From assembly GCF_002295065.1 (NCBI RefSeq), contig NZ_NSGG01000003.1, positions 434,001 to 498,000 of the forward strand: 64,000 nucleotides of DNA, written 5' to 3'. Position numbers and translations under genes: made by a program. The number at the start of each line of letters is the position of its first letter. Positions within the stretch are counted from its first letter, which is position 1. This DNA comes from Mesorhizobium sp. WSM3859. Lineage in GTDB: Bacteria; Pseudomonadota; Alphaproteobacteria; Rhizobiales; Rhizobiaceae. The notes beneath the pieces were generated by a model. The model was not told where the DNA came from. It ran no database searches and saw only the letters and a list, made by a program, of their open reading frames with translations. Shown piece by piece: positions 2,539-51,626 of the stretch.

Positions 2539-3830
2539 TGCTGAACCTCTTTGTTCGCCGATTTGCTGGGATCGATGGTGTTGTCGACGGCAACCGACAT
2601 GCCGTTGAAGAGCCGGTTCTGCCCGGCCGTGACGACCTGGTCGCCATCCTTGAGGCCCTCGGTGATCTCGACCATGCCGTTGTTGCGGCGGCCGAGCTTC
2701 ACAAACACCTGCGAGATGACGAGCGTGGGCTGTTGCGCGGCCTCGGCCGGTTTGGCGTCAGCCGCCTTCGTCGCGTTGTCAGCGGGCTTGGTCGCGTCGG
2801 TGGCGGGTTTGGAAGCATCGGCCTGCGGCTTGGCGGCGTCGGCGGCCGGCTTGTCGGTGGCGGCCTTCTGATCGTCCGGCTTTGCCGGCGTAGCAGCGGC
2901 ACCCTCCGCCGGTTTTGCCGGCACGACCACGAAAACATAATCGCCGTAGAGGCTCGTCGTCACCGCTGTCTGGGGCACGGAGATGACATTGTTTTCCTGC
3001 GGCAGCTCGACACGGATCTGGACGAACTGGCCAGGCGTCAGCTTGCCTTCCGGATTGGCGACCTCGCCGCGGATCGAGACCAGCCGGCTCGCCGGATCGA
3101 TCTTGGGGTCGATGCCGCGGATGGAGCCGGCAAAGGACATGTCGGCGAGACTGCTGCCGAGCTTGACGGCCTGGCCGATCTTGAGCAGCGGAAGCTGCTG
3201 TTCGGGGATGGTGAAGTCGACCCGCATCGTGTCCAGATCCTGGATCGTCACCACCGAGTTGCCGGGGGCAAGATATTGGCCGATATCGATCTTCGGGATA
3301 CCGACCGTGCCGCCGAAGGGCGCGGACAATTGCTTCTGATCGAGCACGGCCTGCAGCTTGTTCACCTGCGCGGCCGAGGCATCCGCGGCAGCACGCGCGG
3401 CGTCGAGCGTCGCGTCGGTACCGACACCGCGCCGCTGCAATTCGATCGCGCGGGTCAGCGCCGCCTGGTCCGAGGCGGCCTGCGCCTTCTGCGCCACCAG
3501 ATCGGCCTTCTCGACCGCGTCGTCCAGCTGCAGGAGCACAGCGTCGGTGGCGACCTTCTGGTTGGCGTGGAAGAGGATGTTCTTGACGATGCCGCTCGTT
3601 TCGACGGTAAGGTCGACGCCGCGCACGGCATTGACGGTACCGATCGCCTCGACGCCAGGCGTCCATTCCGAAGGCTTGACGATCACAGTCGAGACCGTGG
3701 CGGCCGGCGGCTTCATGGTGGCGAAATACTGCTTGATGCCGGCATCGCGCATGAAGTTGAAACCAACGATGCCGACGCAGACCACAGCGAGCAGAATCAG
3801 GAACACGGCGATGGTGATAAAGCGCTTCAC
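2535..3830 (-). CDS. Periplasmic adaptor (membrane fusion) subunit of RND efflux pump
   Basis: HlyD/AcrA-type adaptor that links the RND permease to an outer-membrane channel. I place the start at GTG 3830 (VKRFITIAVF, 431 aa) because AGGGG lies 7 nt upstream; a TTG ten codons earlier is possible but has no such signal. One N-terminal membrane anchor is followed by biotinyl-lipoyl, short alpha-hairpin and beta-barrel regions. The C-terminal third is interrupted by about 70 residues of Ala/Pro/Lys/Asp-rich low-complexity sequence (+ strand about 2735-2935) before the last membrane-proximal strands resume with VFVKLGRR. That insert is unusual for the family. It overlaps the permease by 4 bp. 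Confidence 0.93.
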   Translation of the reverse strand: MKRFITIAVFLILLAVVCVGIVGFNFMRDAGIKQYFATMKPPAATVSTVIVKPSEWTPGVEAIGTVNAVRGVDLTVETSGIVKNILFHANQKVATDAVLLQLDDAVEKADLVAQKAQAASDQAALTRAIELQRRGVGTDATLDAARAAADASAAQVNKLQAVLDQKQLSAPFGGTVGIPKIDIGQYLAPGNSVVTIQDLDTMRVDFTIPEQQLPLLKIGQAVKLGSSLADMSFAGSIRGIDPKIDPASRLVSIRGEVANPEGKLTPGQFVQIRVELPQENNVISVPQTAVTTSLYGDYVFVVVPAKPAEGAAATPAKPDDQKAATDKPAADAAKPQADASKPATDATKPADNATKAADAKPAEAAQQPTLVISQVFVKLGRRNNGMVEITEGLKDGDQVVTAGQNRLFNGMSVAVDNTIDPSKSANKEVQQ

Positions 3831-10249: not shown

Positions 10250-10429
10250 TCCCAACGGCTTTTTTGCAGAGCAAGGCGGGGCGAAGGTTCCGACTTTCTC
10301 GACAATTGGATTCTTGACAATCGCTGGGGAGCGTTCCAGCATCCTGGTCAAGGGGTTCCCCGCGACGACCCCGTGAGGCGTCAGCCCAACGATCGCGTCC
10401 AAACTCTCTTCATTCTGGAGGTGGACGCC

Positions 10430-11248
10430 ATGCCGTCAACTACCGCAATTACCGTTTCGCAGCTTTCCCGCCTTGTCGGCCTACCGGATGCGCCCGTTCT
10501 CATCGACGTGCGCGTCGACGACGACTACGCGGCCGATCCGCGCCTGCTGCCGGCTTCGTGCCGGCGCGACTTCAAAACCGTCTCGACCTGGGCGGCCGAG
10601 TTCTCCGGATCGAAAGTCGCCGTCATCTGCCAGAGAGGCCAAAAACTCTCGCAAGGCGTGGCGGCATGGCTGCGCCACGAAGGCATTCAGGCGGAGTCGC
10701 TGGAAGGCGGCTTCGAGGCCTGGGTCGCCGCCAAGGCGCCTTTAGTCACTGCCGGCGCAATCCCGCCGCGCGACGAGAAGGGGCGCACAGTGTGGGTCAC
10801 CCGTTCCCGGCCGAAGGTCGACCGCATCGCCTGCCCGTGGCTGATTCGCCGCTTCGTCGATCCCAAGGCGGTGTTCCTGTTCGTCGATCCGGCCGAGGTG
10901 CCTCTTGTGGCCGATCGCTTCGCCGCGGTGCCCTTCGACATCGAAGGCGTGTTTTGGAGCCACCGTGGCGAGCGCTGCAGCTTCGATACGATGATCGAGG
11001 AATTCGGCCTGCGCACCGAGCCGCTCGACCGCCTGGCGCTGATCGTGCGCGCGGCAGACACGGCGCGGCTCGACCTCGTGCCTCAGGCGGCCGGGTTCCT
11101 CGCTGCCTCGCTCGGCCTGTCGCGCATGTTCCGCGACGATCTCGAGCAGCTCGAAGCCGGCATGCTGCTCTACGACGCCTTTTTCCGCTGGTGCCGCGAC
11201 GCGGCGGACGAGACGCATAACTGGCCGGCCGGAGGCAAGGCGCCATGA
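10430..11248 (+). CDS. chrB: Rhodanese-ChrB fusion (chromate resistance protein)
   Basis: 272 aa from ATG 10430, preceded by TGGAGGTGG; upstream in-frame codons to 10373 have no ribosome site. Residues about 1-115 are a rhodanese domain (APVLIDVRVDDDY; loop ICQRGQKL with Cys67). Residues about 125-265 match the ChrB C-terminal domain (TRSRPKVDRIACPWLIRRFVD, GERCSFDTMIEEFGL), associated with chromate sensing or resistance. The stop overlaps chrA by 4 bp. Whether this form regulates chrA or acts as an enzyme is unknown; there is no N-terminal DNA-binding region as in classical ChrB. Confidence 0.88.
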   Translation: MPSTTAITVSQLSRLVGLPDAPVLIDVRVDDDYAADPRLLPASCRRDFKTVSTWAAEFSGSKVAVICQRGQKLSQGVAAWLRHEGIQAESLEGGFEAWVAAKAPLVTAGAIPPRDEKGRTVWVTRSRPKVDRIACPWLIRRFVDPKAVFLFVDPAEVPLVADRFAAVPFDIEGVFWSHRGERCSFDTMIEEFGLRTEPLDRLALIVRAADTARLDLVPQAAGFLAASLGLSRMFRDDLEQLEAGMLLYDAFFRWCRDAADETHNWPAGGKAP

Positions 11249-50770: not shown

Positions 50771-50787
50771 GGTCTCTCTTTTGGTTT

Positions 50788-50836
50788 GAGCATGATCTTT
50801 TCCAAAAACCGGGGCCCCGTTTTTGGGATCATGCTC
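50788..50836. repeat. Rhizobial interspersed palindrome, copy A
   Basis: GAGCATGAT / ATCATGCTC outer arms with inner CCAAAAACCGGGG / CCCCGTTTTTGG stem. A near-identical copy follows 15 bp later. This palindrome type is familiar from rhizobial intergenic regions. Confidence 0.8.
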
Positions 50837-50850
50837 TCTCTTTTTGTTTG

Positions 50851-50899
50851 GAGCATGATCTTTTCCAAAAACCGAGTCCCACTTTTTGGGATCACGCTC
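50851..50899. repeat. Rhizobial interspersed palindrome, copy B
   Basis: Second tandem copy with arms GAGCATGAT / ATCACGCTC and inner CCAAAAACCGAGT / ACTTTTTGG. Its right end overlaps the last codons and stop of yhhQ, so the repeat supplies the protein C-terminus. Confidence 0.78.
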
Positions 50900-51578
50900 C
50901 GGCCGCGACCGCCGGCTGGCTCCAGCGGGCGGCGAGCAGCCGGTAGGGGATCAGCGCCACGACAGCGATGATCAGCTTGACCGAAAGGTCGCCAAGCGCC
51001 CAGGAGACCCAGCGCATCGTCTCGACCGGCAGCACGCCCATCAGCGGCGCGGATTCCAGCGCGAAGCTGTCGTTGGGGCCGGCAAAGGCGAAGGCGGCGG
51101 AAAAGGCGACGCCGAAGAAGACGATCGTATCGAACACCGAGCCGACCAGCGTGCCGACGATCGGCGCCCGCCACCAGCTCTGCCGGCGCAGCCGGTTGAA
51201 GACGGTGACGTCGAGCAATTGCGCGGCGAGGAAGGCGGCGCCGGAGGCGGCCGCGATGCGCACCAGCCGGTCGGCGGCGGTCTCGAACTCAATCAGGCCA
51301 TGACGGAACAGGAAGGGCGGGACCAGGATCGAGCAGGTCACCGCCGTCATGAAGCCGACGAACACCACCTTGCGCGCCACGGCCGGGCCGTAGCGGCGGT
51401 TGGCTAGGTCGGTGACCAGGAAGGAAAAAGGATAGGTGAAGGCGCCCCAGGTCAGCAGGTCGGCGAGCGACAGGCCGCCGACCTGGCCTTGCATCGGGAA
51501 CTGCACAAGGATGTTCGACGCCACGACGACAAGCGCCATGGCGGCCACGAAGGGCAGGTATCGCGTCAGGAAATTCAT
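50892..51578 (-). CDS. yhhQ: Queuosine precursor transporter (YhhQ/VUT family)
   Basis: 228 aa, six membrane segments. Imports preQ0/preQ1 or queuine for tRNA queuosine modification. YhhQ blocks: LTWGAFTYPFSFLVTDLANR, VFFGVAFSAAFAFA, VKLIIAVVALIPYRLL. The start codon ATG 51578 and its Shine-Dalgarno AGGA sit inside a probable preQ1-I riboswitch, which independently supports the substrate. Downstream of rpmB, 111 bp apart. Confidence 0.94.
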   Translation of the reverse strand: MNFLTRYLPFVAAMALVVVASNILVQFPMQGQVGGLSLADLLTWGAFTYPFSFLVTDLANRRYGPAVARKVVFVGFMTAVTCSILVPPFLFRHGLIEFETAADRLVRIAAASGAAFLAAQLLDVTVFNRLRRQSWWRAPIVGTLVGSVFDTIVFFGVAFSAAFAFAGPNDSFALESAPLMGVLPVETMRWVSWALGDLSVKLIIAVVALIPYRLLAARWSQPAVAAGA

Positions 51579-51605
51579 TTTTTTATCCTGGGTAATGGAA
51601 CCAGC
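51576..51605 (-). promoter_or_regulatory. preQ1-I-type riboswitch overlapping the yhhQ start
   Basis: Read as RNA from 51605: P1 5' strand CUGG, loop UUC, CAUU, A, CCC, P1 3' strand CAG-G, then an A-rich tail AUAAAAAAAUG. P1 pairs CUGG with CCAG. CAUU in the loop pairs with AAUG in the tail, forming the H-type pseudoknot; that AAUG contains the yhhQ start codon. GGUUC, ACCC and the AUAAAAAA tail match the preQ1-I consensus. It would block translation when bound. Confidence 0.75.
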
Positions 51606-51626
51606 CGAGCGTCGTGCCGACGCTCG
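51606..51626. terminator. Hairpin between rpmB and the riboswitch
   Basis: CGAGCGTCG / CGACGCTCG, a perfect 9-bp stem with a 3-nt loop, directly abutting P1 of the riboswitch and 64 bp after rpmB. It may terminate rpmB (no T-run) or act as an extra switch stem. Confidence 0.45.

Follow-up and report, generated by a model that had tools for sequence, protein, structure and literature searches.

A predicted type III-like preQ1-I riboswitch with the start codon of yhhQ in its pseudoknot

The transporter gene and its leader

The DNA analysed here is a stretch of 64,000 nucleotides (the window) whose nearest named relatives belong to Mesorhizobium. On its minus strand lies a gene of the VUT/YhhQ group, the product of which had been taken for a queuosine precursor transporter in a sequence-only reading of the window. 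That assignment holds, as the protein matches the Pfam family Vut_1 (E 4.9e-28) and the queuosine precursor transporter model TIGR00697 (107.7 bits against a cut-off of 50.95). The gene upstream of the leader encodes ribosomal protein L28, and no sigma-70-like promoter was found between positions 51540 and 52120. Just 3' of the transporter gene, at 50779-50899, are two copies of a 58-nt repeat containing a palindrome, which are 88% identical and have a spacing of 63. Homologues of tgt, queF and queC are present in the genome from which the window comes, and preQ1 should therefore be made and used there. Two strong QueC matches occur on contig C7 of this genome (48509-49126 and 147131-147802), about 100 kb apart, and one of the two copies may come from another 7-deazaguanine pathway.

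Positions 51576-51605, at the 5' edge of the transporter gene, have the minus-strand sequence GCUGGUUCCAUUACCCAGGAUAAAAAAAUG, the last three letters of which are the transporter start codon. The block is divided as CUGG-UUC-CAU-UAC-CCAG-GAUAAAAAA-AUG, and its parts are listed below with the basis for each.

51576-51605, minus strand: whole element, from the base preceding P1 through the AUG (sequence and family conservation)
51601-51604, minus strand: P1 5' strand, CUGG (complementary to 51588-51591)
51598-51600, minus strand: L1, UUC (comparison of 168 leader sequences)
51595-51597, minus strand: P2 5' strand, CAU (complementarity with the AUG)
51592-51594, minus strand: L2, UAC, with its final C (51592) as the predicted specificity base that would pair with preQ1 (homology with E. 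coli)
51588-51591, minus strand: P1 3' strand, CCAG (alignment and pair count)
51586-51589, minus strand: Shine-Dalgarno sequence AGGA (sequence; first two bases within P1)
51579-51584, minus strand: A tract (L3) (conservation; docking in the P1 minor groove predicted by homology)
51576-51578, minus strand: AUG of the transporter gene, which is the P2 3' strand (sequence and pairing contrast)
50892-51578, minus strand: VUT/YhhQ queuosine precursor transporter, 228 amino acids (Pfam, TIGR00697)

The preQ1-I layout proposed in the sequence-only reading and the overlap it noticed between the P1 3' strand and the ribosome-binding site AGGA are borne out by these positions. The same reading had placed the element at 51576-51626 and had proposed a four-pair pseudoknot, CAUU/AAUG. 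Both proposals need trimming. The element ends at 51605, and 51606-51626 is a separate feature. The start codon does lie in P2, but the loop position of the supposed fourth pair is U, C or A among relatives; this variability led to rejection of the four-pair version, and P2 is taken as the three pairs CAU/AUG. The base before the specificity C is A in 154 of 168 leaders, C in 10 and U in 4, and positions -6 to -1 relative to the AUG are A in 99-100% of 87 leaders. The last A of the L3 tract is predicted, by analogy, to touch preQ1.

The separate feature at 51606-51626 is a strong GC hairpin on the minus strand that ends just 5' of P1. Hairpins of differing sequence end near P1 in many leaders, and the 45 nt upstream fold with a mean of -16.4 kcal/mol over 168 leaders, versus -11.9 kcal/mol in mononucleotide shuffles. 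The hairpin upstream of P1 is possibly the end of the rpmB mRNA or an insulator.

Conservation and distribution

In the family sample the transporter is encoded in 188 of 199 genomes, and the leaders of 157 of these were examined, comprising 149 with better-matching transporters and 8 from reduced genomes. Leaders were recounted with a pattern that constrained neither the start codon nor the 5' strand of P2. By this pattern the block is found in 145 of the 149 leaders preceding better-matching transporters; it is missing from leaders L135, L143, L165 and L373. The reduced genomes have the block in one of eight cases and nothing close in six. The remaining one, L241, has an apparently decayed copy before the gene, CUGGUUCCAUUACCAAGAUUAAGAAUG, as if the switch were being lost. 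Among the loci of named genomes, some of whose leaders are identical copies of leaders in the other family sample, 79 of 80 match, and L068 has one P1 base changed. Although the pattern prescribes neither P2 nor the start codon, CAU and AUG occur together in all 225 matching alphaproteobacterial leaders. Over 87 leaders, mean column identity is 0.90 in the 26 bases 5' of the AUG; it is 0.36 in the upstream flank and 0.49 across codons 2-10.

Forty leaders taken from other families in the order all lack the element, and an order-wide pattern search matched none of 340 genomes outside the family versus 16 of 17 within it. A model built from the alphaproteobacterial leaders finds a single copy in the genome of origin; when stricter filters were applied to a scan of 385 genomes from the class, it returned this copy and two weak matches only. 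A wider spread in the class was rejected, since the weak matches (E 0.04 and 0.09) are at loci without the transporter. On this evidence the element seems restricted, among alphaproteobacteria, to a single family, which we infer to be the Rhizobiaceae in the GTDB sense.

Relationship to the E. coli yhhQ riboswitch and other systems

Judged by sequence, the element is the counterpart of the type III preQ1-I riboswitch of E. coli yhhQ, so that the earlier label "preQ1-I-like" is right as to class and can be narrowed to type III-like, with the E. coli element as the direct parallel. In E. coli the leader of yhhQ has the sequence UUGGG-UUC-CCU-CAC-CCCAA-linker-AAAAAGG, and the AUG follows six bases on. 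In its structure the P2 pairs are U11-A28, C10-G29 and C9-G30, with A27 on the ligand and A28 forming the ceiling of the pocket (PMC10622847). Type III riboswitches have been called almost exclusively gammaproteobacterial (PMC10622847) or pseudomonadotal (PMC11625349), and they are described as acting by occlusion of the Shine-Dalgarno sequence (PMC10622847, PMC11625349).

The two elements precede the same gene and have in common UU after P1, which is a type III feature (PMC11625349), AC before the P1 3' strand, a pyrimidine-rich loop, an A tract and a three-pair P2 with identical first and last pairs. In the alphaproteobacterial element UU flanks the P1 5' strand as UUC in 130 of 168 leaders (UGG in 28 and UGC in 10), AC precedes the P1 3' strand (UAC-CCAG), P1 has a G-C top, 4-5 A residues precede P2, and yhhQ begins at the AUG of the element. 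The elements differ in that P2 here is CAU with the start codon AUG, whereas in E. coli it is CCU with the Shine-Dalgarno sequence AGG. The Shine-Dalgarno sequence of the alphaproteobacterial element is shifted into the P1 3' strand, the linker is shorter (about 3 nt), P1 is CUGG/CCAG, and the element is present in one alphaproteobacterial family. As the P2 3' strand is AUG in place of the AAGG Shine-Dalgarno sequence of type III elements, the element is named a type III-like variant rather than canonical type III.

Types I and II (Can, Tte and Bsu) likewise have an H-type pseudoknot, a C before the P1 3' strand and an A-rich tail, but they differ in loop consensus and act by indirect or partial occlusion of the Shine-Dalgarno sequence or by transcription termination (PMC11625349, Table 1). 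The start codon is also made unavailable in the add adenine riboswitch and the Mtb-ileS T-box (PMC10907184). In both of these the AUG lies in a hairpin of the expression platform (PMC10907184), while here it is predicted to lie within the ligand-binding pseudoknot itself. Occlusion of the start codon as such is therefore already known, from separate hairpins (PMC10907184). No description of a start codon in a preQ1 pseudoknot was found, the available passages of PMC5372724, PMC12519234 and PMC10907184 containing none; the 2014 paper that defined type III lay outside the scope of the literature covered.

A descriptor of the published type III features, with the P2 sequence free but complementary and written after the element had been seen, has one match in the 64 kb, at the element, and none in 300 dinucleotide shuffles; a looser descriptor has one match, again at the element, and four in 300 dinucleotide shuffles. 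A scan against Rfam, the check suggested in the sequence-only reading, gave no match to the element at gathering score. In a scan of 151 bases the PreQ1 model RF00522 scored 12.5 bits, short of its gathering score of 39. The E. coli yhhQ element, for which a crystal structure has been solved, has no RF00522 match up to E 10 in a scan of the same size, and RF00522 has no match in the whole loci of E. coli, five other non-alphaproteobacterial yhhQ genes and three genomes of the family. Because RF00522 misses the structurally solved E. coli element, the silence of Rfam is uninformative for type III. The lack of a preQ1 match in Rfam 15 for the E. coli yhhQ leader (L213, about 3180-3218) is a gap in the library, and the Rfam preQ1 model is shown to miss type III elements. 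Elsewhere in the window, at 10347-10432 on the plus strand, Rfam reports a chrB-a RNA (60.7 bits against a gathering score of 43.9).

Pairing in P1 and P2

Type III-like elements were sought in 398 genomes of the phylum with the pattern GGTTCCNTNACCC-gap-AAAANG, in which the middle P2 base was free on both sides, and 73 genomes matched. Sixty of these matches were examined as loci and, together with E. coli, form a contrast set of 61, of which 51 are linked to yhhQ and 10 are not. P2 is CCU/AGG in all 40 of the non-alphaproteobacterial yhhQ-linked matches, which come from E. coli and from genomes of the same phylum outside the class, presumably Gammaproteobacteria. The 11 alphaproteobacterial yhhQ-linked matches, all from the family, have CAU/AUG without exception, and mixed combinations occur only among the 10 unlinked matches. 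This split indicates that a change from a C-G to an A-U pair moved the pseudoknot from the Shine-Dalgarno sequence to the start codon. A genuine P2 would predict CAC in leaders that start with GUG. Start codons GUG or UUG with the corresponding loops CAC or CAA were therefore searched for in 394 family genomes; matches occurred in 74, and the 20 loci examined all lack the transporter, the test for which recovers the transporter in 11 of 11 positive loci, so that these loci yielded no such covariant.

Pairs were counted in 48 distinct sequences (23 alphaproteobacterial and 25 other) in alignment A3, from which the linker was omitted. Leaders lacking the motif were removed before the count, as were L117, L119 and L163, in which the loop has a single inserted base, and an earlier joint alignment, A2, in which 3' ends were left-justified and two alphaproteobacterial cores with loop insertions were omitted, was excluded from counting. 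Over the 48 rows, 93.5% of pair cells are standard compared with 75.8% after shuffling, 82 cells are changed on both sides compared with 36.9, and the covariation score is 0.429 compared with 0.139; none of 500 shuffles reaches any of these values. Slid controls gave covariation scores of 0.004-0.193. Two other measures are not above the shuffles: four pairs show a double change, a value equalled in 491 of 500 shuffles, and there are 10 further pair types, equalled in 231 of 500.

When alphaproteobacterial and other rows are taken together, three of the five pairs in P1 and one of the three in P2 are changed on both sides. The covariation that the sequence-only reading had called for in homologous leaders is thus present, but P2 is invariant inside the alphaproteobacterial set, as is CUGG/CCAG. 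P1 covaries among the E. coli-type homologues as well as between those and the alphaproteobacterial elements. The top P1 pairs, G4-C16 and G5-C15, and the specificity C are present in 48 of 48 rows of A3, and the third P1 pair is U-A in the alphaproteobacterial rows and mostly G-C in the others. Only the outermost P1 position varies among the alphaproteobacterial rows, forming a standard pair in 7 of 23 and being unpaired in 16. Covariation of P2 is thus seen in the comparison of alphaproteobacterial with E. coli-type elements, and as the change in P2 coincides exactly with the split into two groups, it possibly reflects a single evolutionary event.

Proposed mechanism and alternatives

The analysis shows that the element is conserved, has the layout described and is linked to the gene, and that P1 and P2 covary when compared with E. 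coli-type elements. With a probability of roughly 0.86, the leader is a class I, type III-like preQ1 translational riboswitch in which preQ1 would cause CAU to pair with the AUG and translation to stop. We infer preQ1 binding, repression and the direction of switching as follows. When preQ1 is low, the P1 hairpin and the A-rich tail would be loosely folded, the ribosome could reach AGGA and the AUG, and the importer would be made. When preQ1 is high, the ligand would pair with C51592, the A tract would dock in P1 and CAU would pair with the AUG. P1 would then hold two Shine-Dalgarno bases and P2 the AUG, and with the Shine-Dalgarno sequence, spacer and start codon wrapped in one pseudoknot of 29 nt, translation would be off. 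By analogy with E. coli, the A of the AUG would occupy the ceiling of the ligand pocket in the manner of A28 and the preceding A would contact preQ1. Since the target is a transporter and preQ1 the likely ligand, feedback repression of import by preQ1 would be the simplest reading.

Some observations count against this model, among them the invariance of P2 within the alphaproteobacterial clade, the two pair measures that do not rise above shuffles, the lack of GUG or UUG covariants at the 20 loci examined and the low score of the Rfam model. Four of 149 family leaders lack the block, seven of eight reduced genomes have no intact copy, and the UGG and UGC variants (38 of 168 leaders) alter bases that build the pocket in E. 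coli. In the minimum-energy fold computed without pseudoknots, the Shine-Dalgarno sequence pairs with a UCCUG in the gene; this alternative was rejected as a conserved fold because no more than 25 of 168 leaders have UCCUG within 30 nt of the AUG.

The main rival to direct pairing with the start codon is a preQ1 aptamer that silences translation indirectly by its fold, CAU being kept for ligand binding. There is precedent in the type I Can element, where translation is attenuated by the fold as such and does not need Watson-Crick pairing of the Shine-Dalgarno base (PMC11625349). The middle P2 base, however, differs between the two groups on both sides and is changed on one side in none of the 51 yhhQ-linked copies, which points to the pairing itself and makes indirect silencing rather improbable. 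It is also possible, though unlikely, that the alphaproteobacterial element has a separate origin and came to resemble type III by convergence. The absence of the element from the leaders and genomes of other families of the order is in keeping with such convergence, as is the identity of only about 32-39% between the YhhQ proteins of the two groups, but transfer or loss elsewhere explains the gap in distribution equally well, and 14 of 27 columns are invariant in both groups, before the same gene. Function would be identical whether the resemblance is due to convergence or common descent.

Explanations that dispense with a riboswitch fare much worse. The gene could begin farther upstream, with GSITQDKKM as an N-terminal extension of the protein, and in the window the frame does stay open for a distance 5' of the block, the open frame having 265 codons against the 228 amino acids of the query. 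Coding was nevertheless rejected as a general explanation and is very improbable, since in 108 of 168 leaders no in-frame start codon follows the upstream stop before the block is reached (in 11 more the stretch has no stop) and the distance from P1 to the AUG, which is 26 nt in 159 of 168 leaders, is 25, 27 or 30 nt in the other nine, each of which breaks the frame. In codon 2 of the supposed extension, moreover, the first two bases vary and the third is fixed. Hardly more credible is the view that the block is just a strong ribosome-binding site, for which AGGA and an A-rich spacer would be typical. A plain ribosome-binding site leaves the conserved bases 5' of AGGA, the complementarity and the covariation of P1 and P2 unexplained, and it was rejected on account of the upstream conservation and the covariation.

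Start-codon pairing by a type III-like riboswitch may define a family-wide preQ1-I subtype, "type III-AUG", in which the AUG would be both a P2 strand and the ceiling of the pocket, and aptamer, Shine-Dalgarno sequence, spacer and start codon would form a single 29-nt unit; the balance tips modestly in favour of this proposal. If true, no translational riboswitch would be more compact in design than type III-AUG, which would also be, to our knowledge, the first natural riboswitch to read its ligand against a start codon. The modes of regulation tabulated in a 2024 review of preQ1 riboswitches all involve the Shine-Dalgarno sequence, a domain that docks it, or transcription (PMC11625349, Table 1). 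The natural exchange of Shine-Dalgarno sequence for start codon through a single compensatory pair would make it possible to test cleanly what in the initiation region needs to be hidden, and a plant-associated family would join a type that has been called almost exclusively gammaproteobacterial (PMC10622847).

Loop L1 provides a further natural variation. In the UGG leaders (for example L120, L146 and L152) and the UGC leaders (L137 and L140), UUC is replaced at the bases that contact the ligand layer in E. coli, and these variants might alter ligand preference.
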